NCBI RefSeq assembly: GCF_000739065.1
Contig: NZ_CP009149.1
Location: forward strand, 806,001-870,000
DNA from: Methanocaldococcus bathoardescens
GTDB taxonomy: Archaea > AGJL01 > Methanococci > Methanococcales > Methanocaldococcaceae
Direction: 5' to 3'
DNA length: 64,000 nucleotides
Shown: piece after piece, positions 6,030 through 36,988 of the stretch
Layout: each line of letters starts with the position of its first letter
Position numbering within the stretch: position 1 is the stretch's first letter
Translations under genes and position numbers: made by a program
The notes under the pieces: model-generated
What the model was told of the DNA's origin: nothing
The model's database searches: none
The model's input: the letters and a program-made list of their open reading frames with translations, nothing else

Positions 6030-7121
6030 ATGGATGCTGTATCTTTTGTATTGTACATAATTAACGTTATGATAAACACAATTATTGATTATTTAAATGT
6101 AAATAGAGTTTTAGCATTATTAACTGCTTTCTTAATGGCTGGAGGTATTGCATCGATGATTAACAAAAACTTTATTATAAAATATTTCGGCTCAACTACA
6201 CCAAAACACATATCTTATACTGTAGCCGCTATTAGCGGAACTTTATTAGCTGTTTGTTCTTGCACTATCCTTCCATTATTTGCCAGCATATATAAAAGAG
6301 GTGCAGGAATAGGACCAGCAACAACATTTTTATTTTCAGGGCCAGCAATTAATGTTTTGGCAATATTCTATTCAGCAGCATTACTTGGATGGGATATTGG
6401 TTTCTTAAGAGCAGTGTTTGCAATAATTGTTTCCATATTTATTGGCTTATCTATGGAAATGATATTTAGAAAAGAGGAAAAGAGGAGAGCTTTAAGAGTT
6501 CCAAAAGCTGATAAAATATCAGATAGGCCATTATATCAAACAATAACATTCTTTGGGTTGCAGTTTATTATGCTACTTGTAATTACTGCTTCACCTAAGC
6601 TGTTTCCAACTTTATCAACGCCATTATATGGTGGATTTTTATTAAAGCATTTACTATTTATAATACTTGGTATTATCTTGGTTATAACAACAAAAACTTG
6701 GTTTAAAAAAGAGGAAATAAAAAGCTGGCTTAGAGAAACATTTGTATTATTAAAAATTGTATTTCCATTGCTGATTATTGGGGTTGCTATAGCAGGAGTT
6801 ATTAAAGCAATCATCCCACCAAGTTATATAGCCAATTACGTTGGAGGGAACTCCATAACAGCCAACTTCATAGCTTCATTTATTGGAGCTTTAATGTATT
6901 TTGCTACATTAACAGAAGTTCCAATTATAAAAGCTCTAATGGAGCTTGGTATGGGTGTAGGGCCAGCAATGGCTTTATTGTTAGCTGGGCCGAGCTTGAG
7001 TATTCCTACAGTTTTAACAATCTCAAAGGTCTTAGGAAAGACAAAGGCATTAACTTATTTAGGTTTGGTAGTTATATTTTCAACAATTTGTGGTTATATT
7101 GCTGGAATAATTCTTGGATAA
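6030..7121 (+). CDS. ArsP/DUF318-type permease (UPF0718 family)
   Basis: A 363-residue integral membrane protein with about 10 hydrophobic segments. The hallmark CSC in LLAVCSCTILPLFA (about residues 70-83) is followed by FLFSGPAINVLAI, and a second pseudo-symmetric half has LLLAGPSLSIPT. This is the family of the organoarsenical permease ArsP, also annotated as a predicted permease. AGGAGGGG precedes the ATG at 6030. It is the last gene of the thioredoxin-CGGC-zinc-ribbon run, a context often seen where a small thioredoxin supports the permease. The substrate is unknown. Confidence 0.88.
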   Translation: MDAVSFVLYIINVMINTIIDYLNVNRVLALLTAFLMAGGIASMINKNFIIKYFGSTTPKHISYTVAAISGTLLAVCSCTILPLFASIYKRGAGIGPATTFLFSGPAINVLAIFYSAALLGWDIGFLRAVFAIIVSIFIGLSMEMIFRKEEKRRALRVPKADKISDRPLYQTITFFGLQFIMLLVITASPKLFPTLSTPLYGGFLLKHLLFIILGIILVITTKTWFKKEEIKSWLRETFVLLKIVFPLLIIGVAIAGVIKAIIPPSYIANYVGGNSITANFIASFIGALMYFATLTEVPIIKALMELGMGVGPAMALLLAGPSLSIPTVLTISKVLGKTKALTYLGLVVIFSTICGYIAGIILG

Positions 7122-7123
7122 AA

Positions 7124-7294
7124 TTAAAGCTCTTTTTTAACCTTTTCATTTAGCTCTTTTAATTTATTGTATAGTTCTTCATATTCCTTAGTTTCTAAGC
7201 CAAGTTCTTTTAATTGGTTTATTATTGCCTCAAAATGCTCTTCTGTATGATGTAGAGTGTGAAGAAGCTTTTTTATCAACTTCTCTCTCTCCAT
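7124..7294 (-). CDS. Small helical protein, unrecognised
   Basis: A 56-residue frame read leftward from ATG 7294, with GGTGAAAAT directly before it, to TAA at 7124. The sequence is charged and heptad-like, with LHTLHHTEEHFEAI in the first half and Lys/Glu-rich helix after; it is predicted all-helical or coiled-coil and soluble. It is convergent with the permease, the two stops lying 2-3 bases apart. I know no family. Confidence 0.7.
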   Translation of the reverse strand: MEREKLIKKLLHTLHHTEEHFEAIINQLKELGLETKEYEELYNKLKELNEKVKKEL

Positions 7295-7385
7295 ATTTTC
7301 ACCAGTTAGTTATTTATACTTAACAATACTAAAATAATGTTATCCAAAGTATATAAATGTTATTAAATTTTTGAGGGATAGTAAT

Positions 7386-7886
7386 ATGCAAATGTGTGAG
7401 TTGTGCGGAAAGCTTGTAGATAAGCTTCATAAGGTAATTATTGAAGGCTCTGAAATGTATGTCTGTAAAGAATGCGCCAAATTTGGCAAAAGTCCAAAAA
7501 CATATTCAAGATTAGGTAAAAAACCAACAATAATAGGAAAAGGTGGGATAACTACTAATAAACAAGTTAAAAAACCTGTGAAAAGAAGAAGAGATATATT
7601 TGACACTCTACCAATGTTAAGAGAAGATTATGGGGATGTTATTAGAGAAGCAAGAGAAAAGAGAGGTTTATCAATAGAAGAGCTTGCTAAAAAACTTAAA
7701 ATGAAAGCATCCACTTTACAAAAATTTGAAAGATATGAGTTAGAACCAAATGAAAGAGAAATTAAAATATTAGAGAAAGAGTTAAAAATTACTTTAACTG
7801 AAAGTGTTGGGGAAGAAAGTTCATATTATGGCAGTGGAGATGAAGATGGCTTTACATTAGGTGATTTCATTAAAATTAAAAAATAA
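7386..7886 (+). CDS. Multiprotein-bridging-factor-1-like transcription factor (aMBF1)
   Basis: A 166-residue archaeal MBF1. An N-terminal zinc ribbon (CELCGK...VCKECAKFG) is followed by a basic linker and a Cro/C1-type helix-turn-helix ([21 protein letters not shown]...[11 protein letters not shown]). In archaea it binds translating ribosomes; in eukaryotes the homologue bridges activators and TBP. ATG 7386, with GAGGGA five bases earlier, is preferred to the upstream TTG 7371. The C-terminal tail is acidic. It is a stand-alone gene. Confidence 0.92.
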
Positions 7887-7903
7887 TTGTTTATATTTTA
7901 TTT

Positions 7904-9196
7904 TTAATCCTTCTTTTCTATAAACTCCCTCAAAACAGAGGTTGCATAATTTCCTTTTTTTAAACAAAATTGTAAAACATAGCTATCATCTTCAATCCAA
8001 TATTTCATATTGTATATTTTTCCAATCATTGCCCTTCTATCTCCAATAAATGAGCCAAACTCACCAATCTTGAAATCTTTTGGACTTAGATTTTCCCTCT
8101 CATAAATTTCTCTCTCAATTTCTCCTTGAATGCCTTCAGCGAATCTTGTTTTATATCCAAACAATGCTCCACTTGGCACATTATCAATTAAAATATCCCC
8201 TTCCATTGGTTCAAAGCCATATTCAAACCTTCTATTAATTATCTCATTGAATAAATAGGATTGATAGGCATTTATAAACATGCATCTTAAGTATGGTGGA
8301 AGAATCATAAATGCCTTTTGATAGCTCCCAGTTTCCATATAAGCTTTAATCATTCTCCTTTCATAAAAGAATGCCTTTGGGAATTTTTTATATGCTTCTT
8401 TAAAGTTTTCTTCATCAACCAATTCTCTTGCTAATTTTGATTTTTCATCATCATAAGGTAAAGGAGTTCCACAATATGCATGGAAAGCCGCTTCCCAATC
8501 CCTCTCTATAATAAATCTCCCTACAATGTGAGTTATTGGTCTTGTAGTTCCAAATCTTTGAACTCCATAATAATTTAGGAAATATTTTAGCTTACATAAC
8601 TCATTTAAAGCTTCTTCCAATTCTTTTCCTTTAAGTTCTGGTTCCCTAACTCTTATAGTAAATCTATTCCCCCACAAATCCCCCAATCTTATTTTTTTAT
8701 TTGTTTTTTGGAAATCCCTTAATGTAATTCCTTTAATCTTAACTTTCATTAAATCTTCTAACTTTACATTAAAACAGCCAACTCTTTGAGTAGTTATGGC
8801 ATATTTATCTTTATTTCCAGCAAATCCAAAATGTTTTCTCTGCTTTCCTACTCTGTTTGCTATCTCTCTAATAGCATCTAAAGTTGTCCAATTCCTTTTC
8901 TCCAAGGTGAAGTGTATATAATTTCCCTTCCAGTTTTCTTCATCTTTAAATTCTATACTCTTTCCAACTTCTAAAATAATTCCATCTGATGTTATCTCTT
9001 CAACAATAAAATCTTCCGGATATTTTTTAATAATTCCTCCTGTATAAACGTCAGTTAAGTATTTATTCATGTTTAATGGCATTTCTTTTAGCTTTTCTTT
9101 AATCCTACTATCTCTCAATGTTTTTCTATATCTTTTTAATTTTTCTTTCAAATTTTTTTCACTTTCTTTCTTTCTCTGCTGAATCAAAAAGTACAT
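7904..9196 (-). CDS. truD: tRNA pseudouridine(13) synthase TruD
   Basis: Isomerises U13 of tRNA to pseudouridine. The catalytic block FAGNKDKYAITTQRVG contains the essential aspartate (about D130). Other family motifs are KYFLNYYGVQRFG and a C-terminal ...LFGYKTRFAEG...RR.M region, with the TRUD insertion domain between. At 430 aa it has a basic N-terminal extension of about 40 residues (KKESEKNLKEKLKRYRK) beyond the bacterial length. The ATG at 9196 follows GGTGGT. Its promoter region contains TIR element copy 2. Confidence 0.94.
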   Translation of the reverse strand: MYFLIQQRKKESEKNLKEKLKRYRKTLRDSRIKEKLKEMPLNMNKYLTDVYTGGIIKKYPEDFIVEEITSDGIILEVGKSIEFKDEENWKGNYIHFTLEKRNWTTLDAIREIANRVGKQRKHFGFAGNKDKYAITTQRVGCFNVKLEDLMKVKIKGITLRDFQKTNKKIRLGDLWGNRFTIRVREPELKGKELEEALNELCKLKYFLNYYGVQRFGTTRPITHIVGRFIIERDWEAAFHAYCGTPLPYDDEKSKLARELVDEENFKEAYKKFPKAFFYERRMIKAYMETGSYQKAFMILPPYLRCMFINAYQSYLFNEIINRRFEYGFEPMEGDILIDNVPSGALFGYKTRFAEGIQGEIEREIYERENLSPKDFKIGEFGSFIGDRRAMIGKIYNMKYWIEDDSYVLQFCLKKGNYATSVLREFIEKKD

Positions 9197-9932: not shown

Positions 9933-12032
9933 ATGAGCTTAAAATATATTTTTTATCCAAAATCTATAGCTGTTATAGGAGCTTCAAAAACTGAAGGGAA
10001 GGTTGGCTATGCACTAATGAAAAACTTAAAAGATTTTAATGGGAAAATATATCCTGTAAATCCAAAATATGATGAGATATTTGGAATAAAATGCTATAAA
10101 TCAGTTTTAGACATTGAAGATGATGTAGATTTAGCTGTTATAGTTGTTCCAAACGTTGTTGTTCCTAAAGTATTAGAAGAATGTGGAGAAAAAGGAGTTA
10201 AAGGGGCTGTAATTATTACAGCTGGATTTTCAGAAGTAGGAAATTATGAGTTGGAAAATAAAGTTAAAGAAATAGCAAAAAGATACAACATAAGAATTAT
10301 AGGGCCTAATTGTTTAGGTATCATGAATACTCACATAAACCTAAATGCTACATTTGCAAAGATATTCCCACCAAAAGGAGGAGTTTCAATAATCTCACAA
10401 AGTGGAGCTGTTTTAAACGCCATATTAGATATCGCCCCTTTATTGAATATTGGTTTCTCTAAGGTTGTTAGTATTGGAAATAAAGCGGATATTCAGGAAA
10501 GTGATTTATTGGAATATTTTTTAGATGATGAAGATACTAAGATAGTTGTTTTATACATAGAAGGATTAAAGGATAAGAGATTTTTAAAAGTTGCTAAAAA
10601 GCTATCTAAGAAAAAGCCAATAATTGCTTTAAAATCTGGAAGAACTGAAATGGGGAAGAAGGCAGCAAAATCCCACACAGGCTCTTTAGCTGGAGAGGAT
10701 GCTATTTATGAGGCAGCGTTTAAAGAAGCTGGGATAATTAGGGCATATACGTTTGAAGAGTTAGTTGATTTAATTCATCTCTTTTCAACTCAGCCAACAA
10801 TAAGCTCAAATGAAATTGGGATTATAACAAATGCTGGAGGATTTGGAGTTTTAGCGGCTGATAGCTGTGTTGATTATAACATGAGATTATCTAATTTTAG
10901 CCAATCAACAATAGAAAAGCTTAAAGAAATTTTGCCTCAAACTGCCAATATATCAAATCCGTTAGATATTATTGGAGATGCCACACCAGAGAGATATAAA
11001 AAGGTTATAGAAGTTTTAGCTGAAGATAGCAACGTTAAAGGGCTTTTAGTTATATTAACACCACAAGAGATGACAAAACCGTTAGAGGTTGCTAAATCTA
11101 TTATAGAAGTTAAAAATTACCATAAAGAATTTGAAAATAAACCGTTAATTACTTCATTTGTTGGAGGAGTTTCAGTTAAAGGAGCTAAAAGTTATTTAAG
11201 GAAAAATGGAATTCCATCCTATATAACACCAGAAAATGGAGTCAAAGCTCTATCTCATCTCTATAAATATAACTTAATGAAAGTTAAGGAAGATTATGAT
11301 GAATACTTAGAAAATATTAAAGAAGAGTTCTTAAAAATCACAGAAGAAAATAGAGATATTATTAAAGAATTGCTACAAAATCCAAACGAGTATAAAGCTA
11401 AAAAATTATTGAGCATTTATGGATTTCCAGTTCCTAAAGGCTATTTAGCTAAAAATGAAGATGAAGCTTTAGAATATTGTAAAAAATTAGGAAAATGTGT
11501 AATGAAAATTGTTTCACCACAAATAATACATAAGACAGAGGCAGGAGGAGTTATAATAAATCCAAAAAATCCTAAAGAGGCATTTAAAAAATTAATTGAA
11601 AATGCCAAAGAATATGCAAAAAGAATGGGCATTGATGATTTAATTATAGAAGGAGTGTTAGTTGAAGAGTTCATTGAGAAAGATAAGATGGAAATTATAG
11701 TTGGAGCTAAGAGAGATGATATTTTTGGCTCTGTTGTGATGGTTGGATTGGGAGGAGTGTTTGTTGAAGTTTTAAAGGATGTGAGCTTTGGCATTTCACC
11801 AATAACAAGGGACTTTGCTCTTAATATGTTAAAAGAATTAAAATCATATAGAGTGTTAGAAGGTGTTAGAGGAAGGCCTAAGAGAGATATTAACTTTATT
11901 GCTGATACTCTAATAAAGATTGGAGTATTTATGGACATTCACAATGAGATTAAGGAAATGGACTTAAACCCAATATTTGTCTTTAATAATAAAGAAGGTG
12001 GTTGTATAGGAGATGCAAGAATAATAAAATAA
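9933..12032 (+). CDS. ADP-forming acetyl-CoA synthetase, fused alpha-beta
   Basis: Converts acyl-CoA + ADP + Pi to acid + CoA + ATP (substrate-level phosphorylation), cytoplasmic. The alpha part (about residues 1-460) has a CoA-binding start YPKSIAVIGAS and the phospho-histidine loop SHTGSLAGED with H248. The beta part (about 470-699) is ATP-grasp, with IIHKTEAGGV carrying the second conserved His. The 699-aa length fits single-chain ACD/NDP-forming acyl-CoA synthetases. It has a strong GGGGGAGGG ribosome-binding site. Substrate preference (acetyl versus other acyl) cannot be read. Confidence 0.92.
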   Translation: MSLKYIFYPKSIAVIGASKTEGKVGYALMKNLKDFNGKIYPVNPKYDEIFGIKCYKSVLDIEDDVDLAVIVVPNVVVPKVLEECGEKGVKGAVIITAGFSEVGNYELENKVKEIAKRYNIRIIGPNCLGIMNTHINLNATFAKIFPPKGGVSIISQSGAVLNAILDIAPLLNIGFSKVVSIGNKADIQESDLLEYFLDDEDTKIVVLYIEGLKDKRFLKVAKKLSKKKPIIALKSGRTEMGKKAAKSHTGSLAGEDAIYEAAFKEAGIIRAYTFEELVDLIHLFSTQPTISSNEIGIITNAGGFGVLAADSCVDYNMRLSNFSQSTIEKLKEILPQTANISNPLDIIGDATPERYKKVIEVLAEDSNVKGLLVILTPQEMTKPLEVAKSIIEVKNYHKEFENKPLITSFVGGVSVKGAKSYLRKNGIPSYITPENGVKALSHLYKYNLMKVKEDYDEYLENIKEEFLKITEENRDIIKELLQNPNEYKAKKLLSIYGFPVPKGYLAKNEDEALEYCKKLGKCVMKIVSPQIIHKTEAGGVIINPKNPKEAFKKLIENAKEYAKRMGIDDLIIEGVLVEEFIEKDKMEIIVGAKRDDIFGSVVMVGLGGVFVEVLKDVSFGISPITRDFALNMLKELKSYRVLEGVRGRPKRDINFIADTLIKIGVFMDIHNEIKEMDLNPIFVFNNKEGGCIGDARIIK

Positions 12033-12108: not shown

Positions 12109-12142
12109 GCTAACCGGTCCCAAAATTGGGTTCCCGGTTAGC
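12109..12142 (-). promoter_or_regulatory. Archaeal SECIS element
   Basis: Read leftward, the 9-bp stem GCTAACCGG/CCGGTTAGC encloses an asymmetric internal loop, GAA on the 5' side and a single A on the 3' side, then a short CCC/GGG stem and an AU-rich loop. This GAA/A loop topped by a short GC stem is the signature of archaeal SECIS elements, which sit in the 3' UTR and direct Sec insertion at UGA. Here the stop codon (12138-12140) of the selenoprotein gene lies inside the stem itself. The hairpin directly follows the HesB-like frame with its in-frame TGA, so both lines of evidence agree. Confidence 0.92.
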
Positions 12143-12425
12143 ACTCACCGCTACCTTTTATCTTAAGATACTTTCCAAATATTGACCTTCTTAATGAGAT
12201 ATTAACTTCATCAAGCCATTGGTCTGCTATAGGGTCGATGTAGATTTTAAATTCGTTGTCATAGATTAATTTGTCATTTTCATTTGGTTGAGCTATTGAA
12301 ATTCCAAATTTAGGTCCTCCTCACCCAAACCCTTCAAAGTGTATAACTACTGTATCCTGGTTAGCTTTCTTTAACTTATCCAAGATGAACTCCTTAGCTT
12401 CATCTGATATAACTACCTTCTTCAT
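12138..12425 (-). CDS. HesB/IscA-like selenoprotein (Sec at UGA codon 35)
   Basis: Read leftward from ATG 12425 (GGTGAT upstream) the frame gives 95 residues: VVISDEAKEFI at the start, then FEGFG-U-GGPKFGI with TGA at 12321-12323, and ends SGEC. The GCGGP-type motif of HesB/A-type Fe-S carrier proteins has its cysteine replaced by selenocysteine. The coding sense continues in frame beyond TGA for 60 residues with no further stop, and a SECIS hairpin follows immediately. HesB-like selenoproteins are known in methanogens. The role is presumably Fe-S or selenium/sulfur handling. SepSecS for making Sec-tRNA is encoded at 23527-24831. Confidence 0.93.
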
Positions 12426-12583
12426 TTTTTATCACCACGCATTATCTGATTTATTATTATAACTTATCTCATATATATAATTTATGGTTATGTCAATACT
12501 TAACACAACCACTGATAAACTACAAAAGAATAAAAAAGAATAAAAATAATATAATTAATTTTATTATAAGATGAATAATTGAA

Positions 12584-12635: not shown

Positions 12636-13421
12636 ATGCAAATGGTGCCACCAAGTGCTTATGATAGAGCAATTACAGTATTTAGCCCAGAGGGTAGATT
12701 GTATCAAGTGGAATATGCAAGAGAAGCTGTAAGAAGAGGGACAACAGCGATAGGTATTGCTTGTAAAGATGGTGTTGTCTTAGCGGTTGATAGAAGGATA
12801 ACAAGCAAACTCGTAAAAATTAGGTCAATAGAGAAGATATTCCAAATTGACGACCACGTTGCTGCTGCTACATCTGGATTAGTTGCTGATGCAAGAGTTT
12901 TAATTGATAGAGCAAGATTGGAAGCTCAAATTTACAGATTAACATACGGAGAGGAAATATCAATTGAAATGTTAGCTAAAAAGATTTGTGATATTAAACA
13001 AGCTTATACTCAACATGGAGGAGTTAGACCGTTTGGAGTTTCATTATTAATTGCTGGAATAGACAAAAATGAAGCAAGATTGTTTGAAACAGACCCAAGT
13101 GGGGCTTTAATTGAATATAAAGCAACAGCAATAGGTAGTGGAAGACCTGTAGTTATGGAACTCTTAGAGAAAGAGTATAGAGAGGATATAACATTAGATG
13201 AAGGTTTAGAGTTGGCAATAACTGCTCTAACAAAAGCAAATGAAGATATAAAACCTGAAAATGTTGATGTTTGTGTTATAACAGTTAAAGATTCACAATT
13301 TAAAAAAATTCCTACAGAAGAAATAAAAAAACTCATAGAAAAAGTTAAAAAGAAATTAAATGAAGAAAATAAAACAGAAGAAGAAAATAAAGAAGAAACT
13401 GAAGAAAAACAAGAAGAATAA
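12636..13421 (+). CDS. psmA: 20S proteasome alpha subunit
   Basis: Forms the outer seven-membered rings of the archaeal 20S core; its N-terminal gate is opened by PAN. The alpha-type N-terminus is intact: MQMVPPSAYDRAITVFSPEG with RLYQVEYA, the family signature. GTTAIGI and later proteasome-fold segments follow. The length, 261 aa, is usual. The last ~25 residues are a Glu/Lys/Asn-rich acidic tail that probably hangs free. GGAGGG lies before the ATG. It is a single gene, with the beta subunit not in this window. Confidence 0.97.
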   Translation: MQMVPPSAYDRAITVFSPEGRLYQVEYAREAVRRGTTAIGIACKDGVVLAVDRRITSKLVKIRSIEKIFQIDDHVAAATSGLVADARVLIDRARLEAQIYRLTYGEEISIEMLAKKICDIKQAYTQHGGVRPFGVSLLIAGIDKNEARLFETDPSGALIEYKATAIGSGRPVVMELLEKEYREDITLDEGLELAITALTKANEDIKPENVDVCVITVKDSQFKKIPTEEIKKLIEKVKKKLNEENKTEEENKEETEEKQEE

Positions 13422-23526: not shown

Positions 23527-24831
23527 TTATAAAACTTCATCCAATTTTTCAATAACTTTGTAGATGTCATCCTTTTTAACTCCAATAGCTGAATTTACAA
23601 CTATGTAATCATAAGGATACCCTTTTAAATAGCAAGTTCCAAATTTATCATTCCTTCTAACTCCTCTTGGCCCTGTAACCCTTAAATTATATAACTTACC
23701 AGCAACATCCAATGGGTCTTTTTTTGTTGTTATGCATGAAGATATAGGGTTTTCAACATTTAAAACCCTTTCATCTTTTTTCTTTGCCAAATCTTCTAAT
23801 AATTCATCCAATAGCTTTTTACATTCTTTCTGTTCCTTCATTAAATTCAGATAGTTTTTAGTTCCAATTGCTAAGAGAGATATTAGGATATTAACAATTG
23901 GATTTGCTGATGCCCTTCCAGGATATGTTAATGAAATCTCTTTTAAAAAACTCTCATCCTTTGTATATATAATCCCTCCACCAATTGGTGTAAATAGATT
24001 TTTATCTGATGAGCTAACTACTGCATCAATTCTGTATTTTAGAGCTTTTTTCAGCTTCTCAATATAGTAGAAGTTTTGGATAGCATAAGCTCCATTTATT
24101 ATATGAGGAATATTATATTCTTGGCATATCTTTGCTATTTCCTCAACATCATCACTCTTCCTTGGTGGGAAAAAAGTTAGAGTGCTTAAAACAACTGGGT
24201 TGTTGTTTTCATTAATTTCTTTTCTTATAGCATCTTCAACATCCCCGACATTAACTTTAACAATATCTCCATCTAAAACTGTCTCAACCAACCTCATCCT
24301 CATGCCAATAAATGAAGTTGCCTTTATAGGACTTTTGTGAGCTGCATATGGGTAGATAACAACATTTGAATTATATTTTTTCCTTGCAGCTGATAAACAT
24401 AAAGCTAAGCTCATCCCAGTAGCTACAGGTGTTGCTATCGCTTTAACTTTCAATCCTAAAGTTTTTAAAAAGCTCTCTAACAATTTATTAGTTAGTTTAT
24501 ACATTACACTTGCTCCAGGTGCTTTTGGTTGAGGGTCTATTAAATTTCCACTCCTTCCAACACCATGACAGAAATCAAAAACTCCTTCTCTTTGCAGTTT
24601 AGTATAAACTCTCGCCTCTCTCTCACCAATTTGCACAACATTTGGGTCTTTATCTGTATCCATAAAGGATAAAATTCTTAATAAAAGCTTTATATGTTCT
24701 TCATCAATTCCATTTTCAGGAACTTTTCTCTGCTCTAAAATATTTTCAATAATTTTTAAATTTTCTTTTAAAGTTAGTTTTCCTCTATTTTCCATGTGTT
24801 TGGGAATAAAGCCAGTTATATTAAGTTCCAT
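23527..24831 (-). CDS. spcS: O-phosphoseryl-tRNA(Sec) selenium transferase (SepSecS)
   Basis: Converts phosphoseryl-tRNA(Sec) to selenocysteinyl-tRNA(Sec) with selenophosphate, PLP-dependent. 434 aa. It shows the phosphate-binding HGVGRSGNL (about 89-97), PQPKAPGASVM, and the pyridoxal lysine in SSSDKNLFTPIGGG (about K277). The C-terminal GPRGVRRNDKFG matches the family. Its presence shows the organism decodes UGA as Sec, which supports the HesB-like selenoprotein at 12138-12425. ATG 24831 follows GGTGATTGA. Confidence 0.95.
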   Translation of the reverse strand: MELNITGFIPKHMENRGKLTLKENLKIIENILEQRKVPENGIDEEHIKLLLRILSFMDTDKDPNVVQIGEREARVYTKLQREGVFDFCHGVGRSGNLIDPQPKAPGASVMYKLTNKLLESFLKTLGLKVKAIATPVATGMSLALCLSAARKKYNSNVVIYPYAAHKSPIKATSFIGMRMRLVETVLDGDIVKVNVGDVEDAIRKEINENNNPVVLSTLTFFPPRKSDDVEEIAKICQEYNIPHIINGAYAIQNFYYIEKLKKALKYRIDAVVSSSDKNLFTPIGGGIIYTKDESFLKEISLTYPGRASANPIVNILISLLAIGTKNYLNLMKEQKECKKLLDELLEDLAKKKDERVLNVENPISSCITTKKDPLDVAGKLYNLRVTGPRGVRRNDKFGTCYLKGYPYDYIVVNSAIGVKKDDIYKVIEKLDEVL

Positions 24832-36662: not shown

Positions 36663-36988
36663 GGTGTGCATGGCTAGGCCGGGGGGTTGGGCGTCCCCTG
36701 TAACCCGAAATCGCCCTTATGCGGGGGCCGAAAACTTGGGGGCGGCATGTTCTCCAGCCCTCTCTTCCCAGACTCCTCGATGATGCCTCGTCCCGTGGGG
36801 CTCGGCGGTGGGGGAGCATCTCCTGTAGGGGAGATGTAACCCCCTTTACCTGCCGAACCCCGCCAGGCCCGGAAGGGAGCAACGGTAGGCAGGACGTCGG
36901 CGCTCACGGGGGAAGCGGGGCTGAGAAGGAGTCTGGGGGCGAGGGAGGGCTGGAGGGCATGCCCACCCCAAGGAAGCCATGCACACCA
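36663..36988 (+). ncRNA. ffs: Signal recognition particle RNA (7S RNA)
   Basis: A GC-rich transcript in AT-rich surroundings. The 5' GGTGTGCATGGC pairs with 3' GCCATGCACACC (helix 1, archaeal feature). The S-domain helix 8 signature CCAGGCCCGGAAGGGAGCA (about 36862-36880) is present; it binds SRP54. Central helix 5 and the Alu-domain GGCCGGGGGG/CCCTGTAACCC segments are at the 5' side. It guides membrane-protein ribosomes with SRP19/SRP54. A T-rich tract at 36991-37020 probably terminates it. Confidence 0.97.

Follow-up and report, generated by a model that had tools for sequence, protein, structure and literature searches.

A HesB-like selenoprotein gene of Methanocaldococcus bathoardescens whose SECIS begins in its last codons, and relatives that keep the UGA without a canonical SECIS

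Archaeal SECIS elements normally lie at or behind the 3' ends of their genes, the element in the 5'-UTR of fdhA being the known exception. Those of the methanogen genes fruA, vhuD, vhuU, fwuB, and sps are built from two stems split by a GAA_A bulge that resembles a k-turn, with a CCC/GGG apical clamp and a short loop. Archaeal selenocysteine insertion is held to need this GAA/A element, whose two As are invariant in vivo (PMC11881835); the factor that binds it is held to be unknown. An element moved directly behind the coding region remains functional, with no apparent impairment (PMC9622424). In selenoprotein genes of Lokiarchaeia, stop codon and SECIS are reported to overlap (PMC11227280, citing Mariotti et al. 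2016).

One archaeal selenoprotein family, TIGR01911 (HesB_rel_seleno), comprises MMJJ_08070 of M. maripaludis and its relatives, with a UGA codon in a UxGP motif and a SECIS at the 3' end. The HesB-like protein of M. maripaludis is known to be a selenoprotein from mutagenesis and 75Se labelling; its function is not known (PMC11097638). The gene considered here belongs to this family and shows no difference of substance from its members. It lies in a 64-kb stretch of the M. bathoardescens genome, all of which we call the window. The original prediction was right to see a HesB/IscA-like selenoprotein in this DNA, and right that such proteins are known in methanogens.

Reading of the minus strand from 12425 to 12138 gives a frame of 95 codons with one in-frame TGA, closed by TAA (Table 1). 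The TGA had been placed at the HesB cysteine position, and there it stands in 33/33 orthologues. This is very probably an ordinary, functional archaeal selenoprotein gene for a HesB-like (IscA-fold) protein, in which UGA35 directs selenocysteine by way of a canonical SECIS that begins at the last cysteine and stop codons. Expression of this particular copy, and its selenocysteine content, are of course predicted. Both tRNA-Sec and SepSecS are found in the genome, which also carries the same SECIS type behind its vhuU, fwuB-like, fruA, and sps genes. The family itself is already known, and the gene is a well-formed member of it; as a textbook case, it illustrates cleanly how the end of a coding region, a stop, and a recoding signal can be written on shared bases.

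Table 1. Coordinates in the window of the hesB-like gene, its signals, its neighbours, and a gene of the selenocysteine machinery
Feature	Position	Strand	Remarks
hesB-like selenoprotein CDS	12141..12425	-	95 codons, of which codon 35 is TGA (Sec) and codon 95, the last, a conserved Cys
ATG start of hesB-like gene	12425-12423	-	
In-frame TGA, codon 35, read as selenocysteine	12321..12323	-	GFG-U-GGPKFG; TGA in 33/33 orthologues
TAA stop of hesB-like gene	12138..12140	-	in lower SECIS stem, stem bases 3-5
Archaeal SECIS	12109..12142	-	12142-12134 pairs with 12117-12109 to form the lower stem; GAA at 12133-12131, faced by the A at 12118; 12130-12119 hold the apical helix and loop
GGTGAT, likely ribosome-binding site	12431..12436	-	just 5' of the hesB-like ATG; inferred from reading of the sequence
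AAATTATATATATGAG, likely TATA-box region	12468..12483	-	about 45-55 nt 5' of the hesB-like ATG; from reading of the sequence
ADP-forming acetate-CoA ligase family gene	9933..12032	+	convergent neighbour; end lies 76 nt from SECIS
Archaeal proteasome alpha subunit gene	12636..13421	+	divergent neighbour
SepSecS (O-phosphoseryl-tRNA:selenocysteinyl-tRNA synthase)	23530..24807 (genome 829530-830807)	-	Sec machinery; same window as hesB-like gene

Against TIGR01911 the protein scores 134.7 bits, with a curated cut-off of 66.35. The earlier remark that the gene is easily missed has to be set against this curated model, which already recognises it. The Pfam Fe-S_biosyn model gives 24.1, just under its cut-off of 26.3, and the protein is therefore a divergent relative of IscA. 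Its predicted structure (pLDDT 94) has the IscA/SufA fold. Foldseek matches it to IscA/SufA structures that include 1r94, 2d2a, and 1x0g, with E values of about 5e-6 to 1.4e-4; for these three, E is below 1e-5 and the TM scores by query length are 0.70-0.73.

The fold is thus shared with the A-type Fe-S carriers IscA, SufA, and ErpA; the ligands are not. IscA carries a CxC near its C-terminus and, earlier in the chain, the cysteine that is the first cluster ligand. The hesB-like protein lacks the C...CxC triad of these carriers, having selenocysteine where they have cysteine, and a single C-terminal cysteine in place of the CxC. We take U35 to occupy the expected site of the first cluster-ligand cysteine of IscA. 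In an alignment of 15 sequences, U35 and the C-terminal cysteine (C95) are among the invariant residues. Because only these two are invariant among the candidate ligand positions, the protein is filed as having the IscA fold, and not as an IscA. Our guess, by analogy with that fold, is that a U35/C95 selenol/thiol pair might handle Fe-S clusters or metal.

Orthologues are present in 33/36 Methanococcales genomes. All of them have UGA at codon 35 and a frame otherwise free of stops, and the hairpin is missing in three; no orthologue was found that lacked the UGA together with the hairpin, or that had acquired a second stop. Cysteine homologues aligned at codon 35, which the original prediction had proposed to look for, did not appear in the 36 genomes covered. 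None of the 33 orthologues has cysteine there, and a scan of genome contigs returned six loci, none a cysteine homologue; the phylum-level search took in the same 36 genomes. In one orthologue (L009, genome G009), the terminal cysteine codon 95 has changed from TGC to TAC (Tyr), which also breaks a pair of the SECIS stem; as the genome is a draft, the change may be genuine or may be an error of sequencing.

The SECIS, in strand order, consists of the stem strand GCUAACCGG, then GAA, then CCCAAUUUUGGG, then A, then the returning strand CCGGUUAGC, with nine pairs in the lower stem. The GAA faces the A, and the apical helix is of the CCC/GGG type with a short loop. The element has the features of an archaeal SECIS: two stems split by GAA_A, three G/C apical pairs, and a position at the 3' end of the gene. 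The hairpin had been described as following the frame. It does lie at the 3' end, but it starts two nt before the stop, within the terminal cysteine codon. The last two bases of that codon are stem bases 1-2, and the TAA, as had been seen correctly, is inside the stem as bases 3-5. Thus, stop and two coding bases are confined to the base of the stem, while 29/34 bases, including the GAA_A bulge and the apical stem, are 3' of the stop.

Statistical support comes from several directions. A covariance model (R1) built from 20 orthologous elements, the window's own among them, finds this SECIS in the 64-kb window at 41.8 bits (E 5e-8), with the runner-up at 14.3 bits. Because the element helped to train the model, its independent support is the conservation and covariation seen in the other 19. 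Across the 20 elements, 9/12 pairs have changed on both sides, and the covariation score was reached by 0/500 shuffles; the pairing collapses once partners are slid against each other. The A-A of the GAA bulge is invariant, and the fold has a z-score of -3.45 against shuffles. The hairpin therefore stands as the archaeal SECIS that it had been proposed to be. At gathering thresholds, Rfam returned no SECIS family match in the window; its sole match was the archaeal SRP RNA (36667-36983, plus strand, 253 bits). The plain pattern GAACCN{3,10}GGA was rejected as a SECIS finder, because its reversed control turned up about as often.

A different view might hold that the frame is a decaying gene, with a true stop inside it and a hairpin that is a terminator or a remnant. 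The loss of the SECIS in three relatives would fit this, as would the M. maripaludis disruption mutant, which is viable and fixes nitrogen (PMC11097638). Decay is, however, hard to reconcile with the purifying selection seen before the UGA as well as after it (dN/dS about 0.03-0.14 where computable), with the want of a second stop in 33 orthologues, or with compensatory changes in a hairpin whose bulge adenines never vary. We consider it very improbable indeed, and keep to the view of a working selenoprotein gene.

The overlap between stop and SECIS had been called unusual, and here the comparison speaks against the original prediction. All 11 SECIS-bearing orthologues of Methanocaldococcus have a stem that starts 1-6 nt before the stop and takes it in. 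One orthologue (L005), 89% identical, has a 34-nt SECIS identical to the window's, overlapping likewise. Among 18 loci in other genera, the stem starts at or before the first stop base in five and includes the last stop base in one; ten start 3-17 nt past the stop, and two were left unresolved by the scan. Over the Methanococcales as a whole, the stem start lies between -6 and +17, counted from the stop. In one hesB element (L023 of G017, 1787-1820), the bulge reads AAA_A where GAA_A is usual, and the pairing of the lower stem is imperfect; an AAA_A variant keeps some activity, though less of it (PMC11881835). Whereas the hesB stem starts before the stop, the other methanogen elements (fruA, vhuD, vhuU, fwuB, sps) start from 0 to over 100 nt behind theirs; within the genus, the elements of vhuU and of one fruA gene, names that were inferred from C-terminal sequences, start 0-3 nt past the stop.

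Might the overlap nevertheless be regulatory, each terminating ribosome melting the SECIS and so lowering selenocysteine insertion by the ribosomes that come later? The arrangement is maintained within Methanocaldococcus, where every SECIS-bearing orthologue has it. Over the order, however, the stem start varies without any hint that a single register is kept, the vhuU and fruA elements just mentioned start 0-3 nt past their stops, and placement directly behind the coding region costs no apparent activity (PMC9622424). Regulation of this kind therefore seems improbable to us. The related suggestion that the overlap could limit re-reading is unsupported for the last of these reasons.

We regard the overlap rather as a compact and tolerated layout that needs no special mechanism. 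A ribosome decoding UGA35 would be about 180 nt upstream of the SECIS, which can thus be folded when it is needed. Only a terminating ribosome would cover the element, and it would do the same to elements 0-5 nt past other stops. The layout can be tolerated because the conserved last cysteine (UGC or UGU) and the UAA fit the stem. The Lokiarchaeal genes also have the stop inside the SECIS (PMC11227280). Their stop is a UGA that belongs to an AUGA motif, in a SECIS of eukaryote-like type; the hesB-like stop is a UAA, and its SECIS is euryarchaeal, with the stop in the lower stem. The layout is ordinary for the family. In three close relatives, however, the SECIS has been lost.

In these relatives, Methanocaldococcus G013, G007, and G006 (loci L010, L011, and L003), the UGA and an intact frame are still present; the canonical SECIS is gone, and is therefore not strictly tied to the gene. 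In G006, the element has been cut to a plain 7-bp hairpin, GCUAACU-GGAA-AGUUAGC (L003 1485-1502, minus), without the GAA_A bulge or the apical helix. In G013 and G007 there is no remnant at all, and a junction lies just past the stop (L010 1786-1810; L011 1786-1815). Behind it is a dihydromethanopterin reductase gene, replacing the acetate-CoA ligase gene; the latter has been relocated in both genomes, with no orphan SECIS beside it. Because the rearrangement junction is common to both, the simplest account is a loss older than their split.

The missing element was not found nearby. There is no canonical SECIS within 1.5 kb of hesB in the three genomes, and none when both strands are scanned over about 10 kb, where nothing scores above 11.3 bits. 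No bacterial-type hairpin directly follows the UGA (z-scores 0.07 to 1.33). Past the UGA there is no in-frame ATG, GTG, or TTG, which leaves these genes no usual start codon for a restart. The machinery persists, at least in G013, where tRNA-Sec and SepSecS are intact and vhuD, vhuU, fwuB-like, and fruA still have good elements, scoring 20.8-37.1 bits with a model (R2) whose training set included the vhuD and vhuU elements and not the other two.

Between G013 and G007, the 60 codons past the UGA differ by seven synonymous changes and no amino-acid change. Neutral expectation makes about 71-80% of changes amino-acid-altering, and puts the chance of 0/7 at about 1e-5 to 2e-4 for what are seven changes in one genome pair, one member of which is a metagenome assembly. 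The G006 branch has seven synonymous and two amino-acid changes past the UGA. For G013 and G007, this sequence comparison supports translation through the UGA that would have been ongoing since the split, although each genome may instead have lost a hidden element on its own and late; it does not, of course, specify the residue inserted.

The SECIS-less orthologues suggest, as a lead and not a demonstration, either read-through without a recognisable SECIS or the work of an unrecognised element. Weak UGA read-through is the cheapest account of G013 and G007, because SECIS-independent suppression exists in M. maripaludis; it gives <1% of wild-type reporter activity, as compared with roughly 350 of 7,000-9,000 mU/mg with a SECIS (PMC9622424). 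Selenocysteine insertion under an unrecognised element is possible, and is the most interesting account. It is a tentative thought, which we doubt somewhat more than we believe, that G013 and G007, possibly with G006, still make a HesB-like selenoprotein, either with no cis-acting SECIS or by such an element, in which case archaeal UGA recoding would have no absolute need of a canonical SECIS. Were this true, a natural gene without a SECIS would make the GAA/A requirement directly testable. The open literature, without specialised reviews, yielded no report of SECIS-less hesB orthologues, and the novelty of these orthologues is provisional. The comparison in any case yields natural SECIS deletions in which the sequence past the UGA still looks translated.

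Directly after the UGA, the closest Methanocaldococcus orthologues have GGAGG (window 12315-12323, minus strand), which is Shine-Dalgarno-like, yet is also simply what two Gly codons would give.
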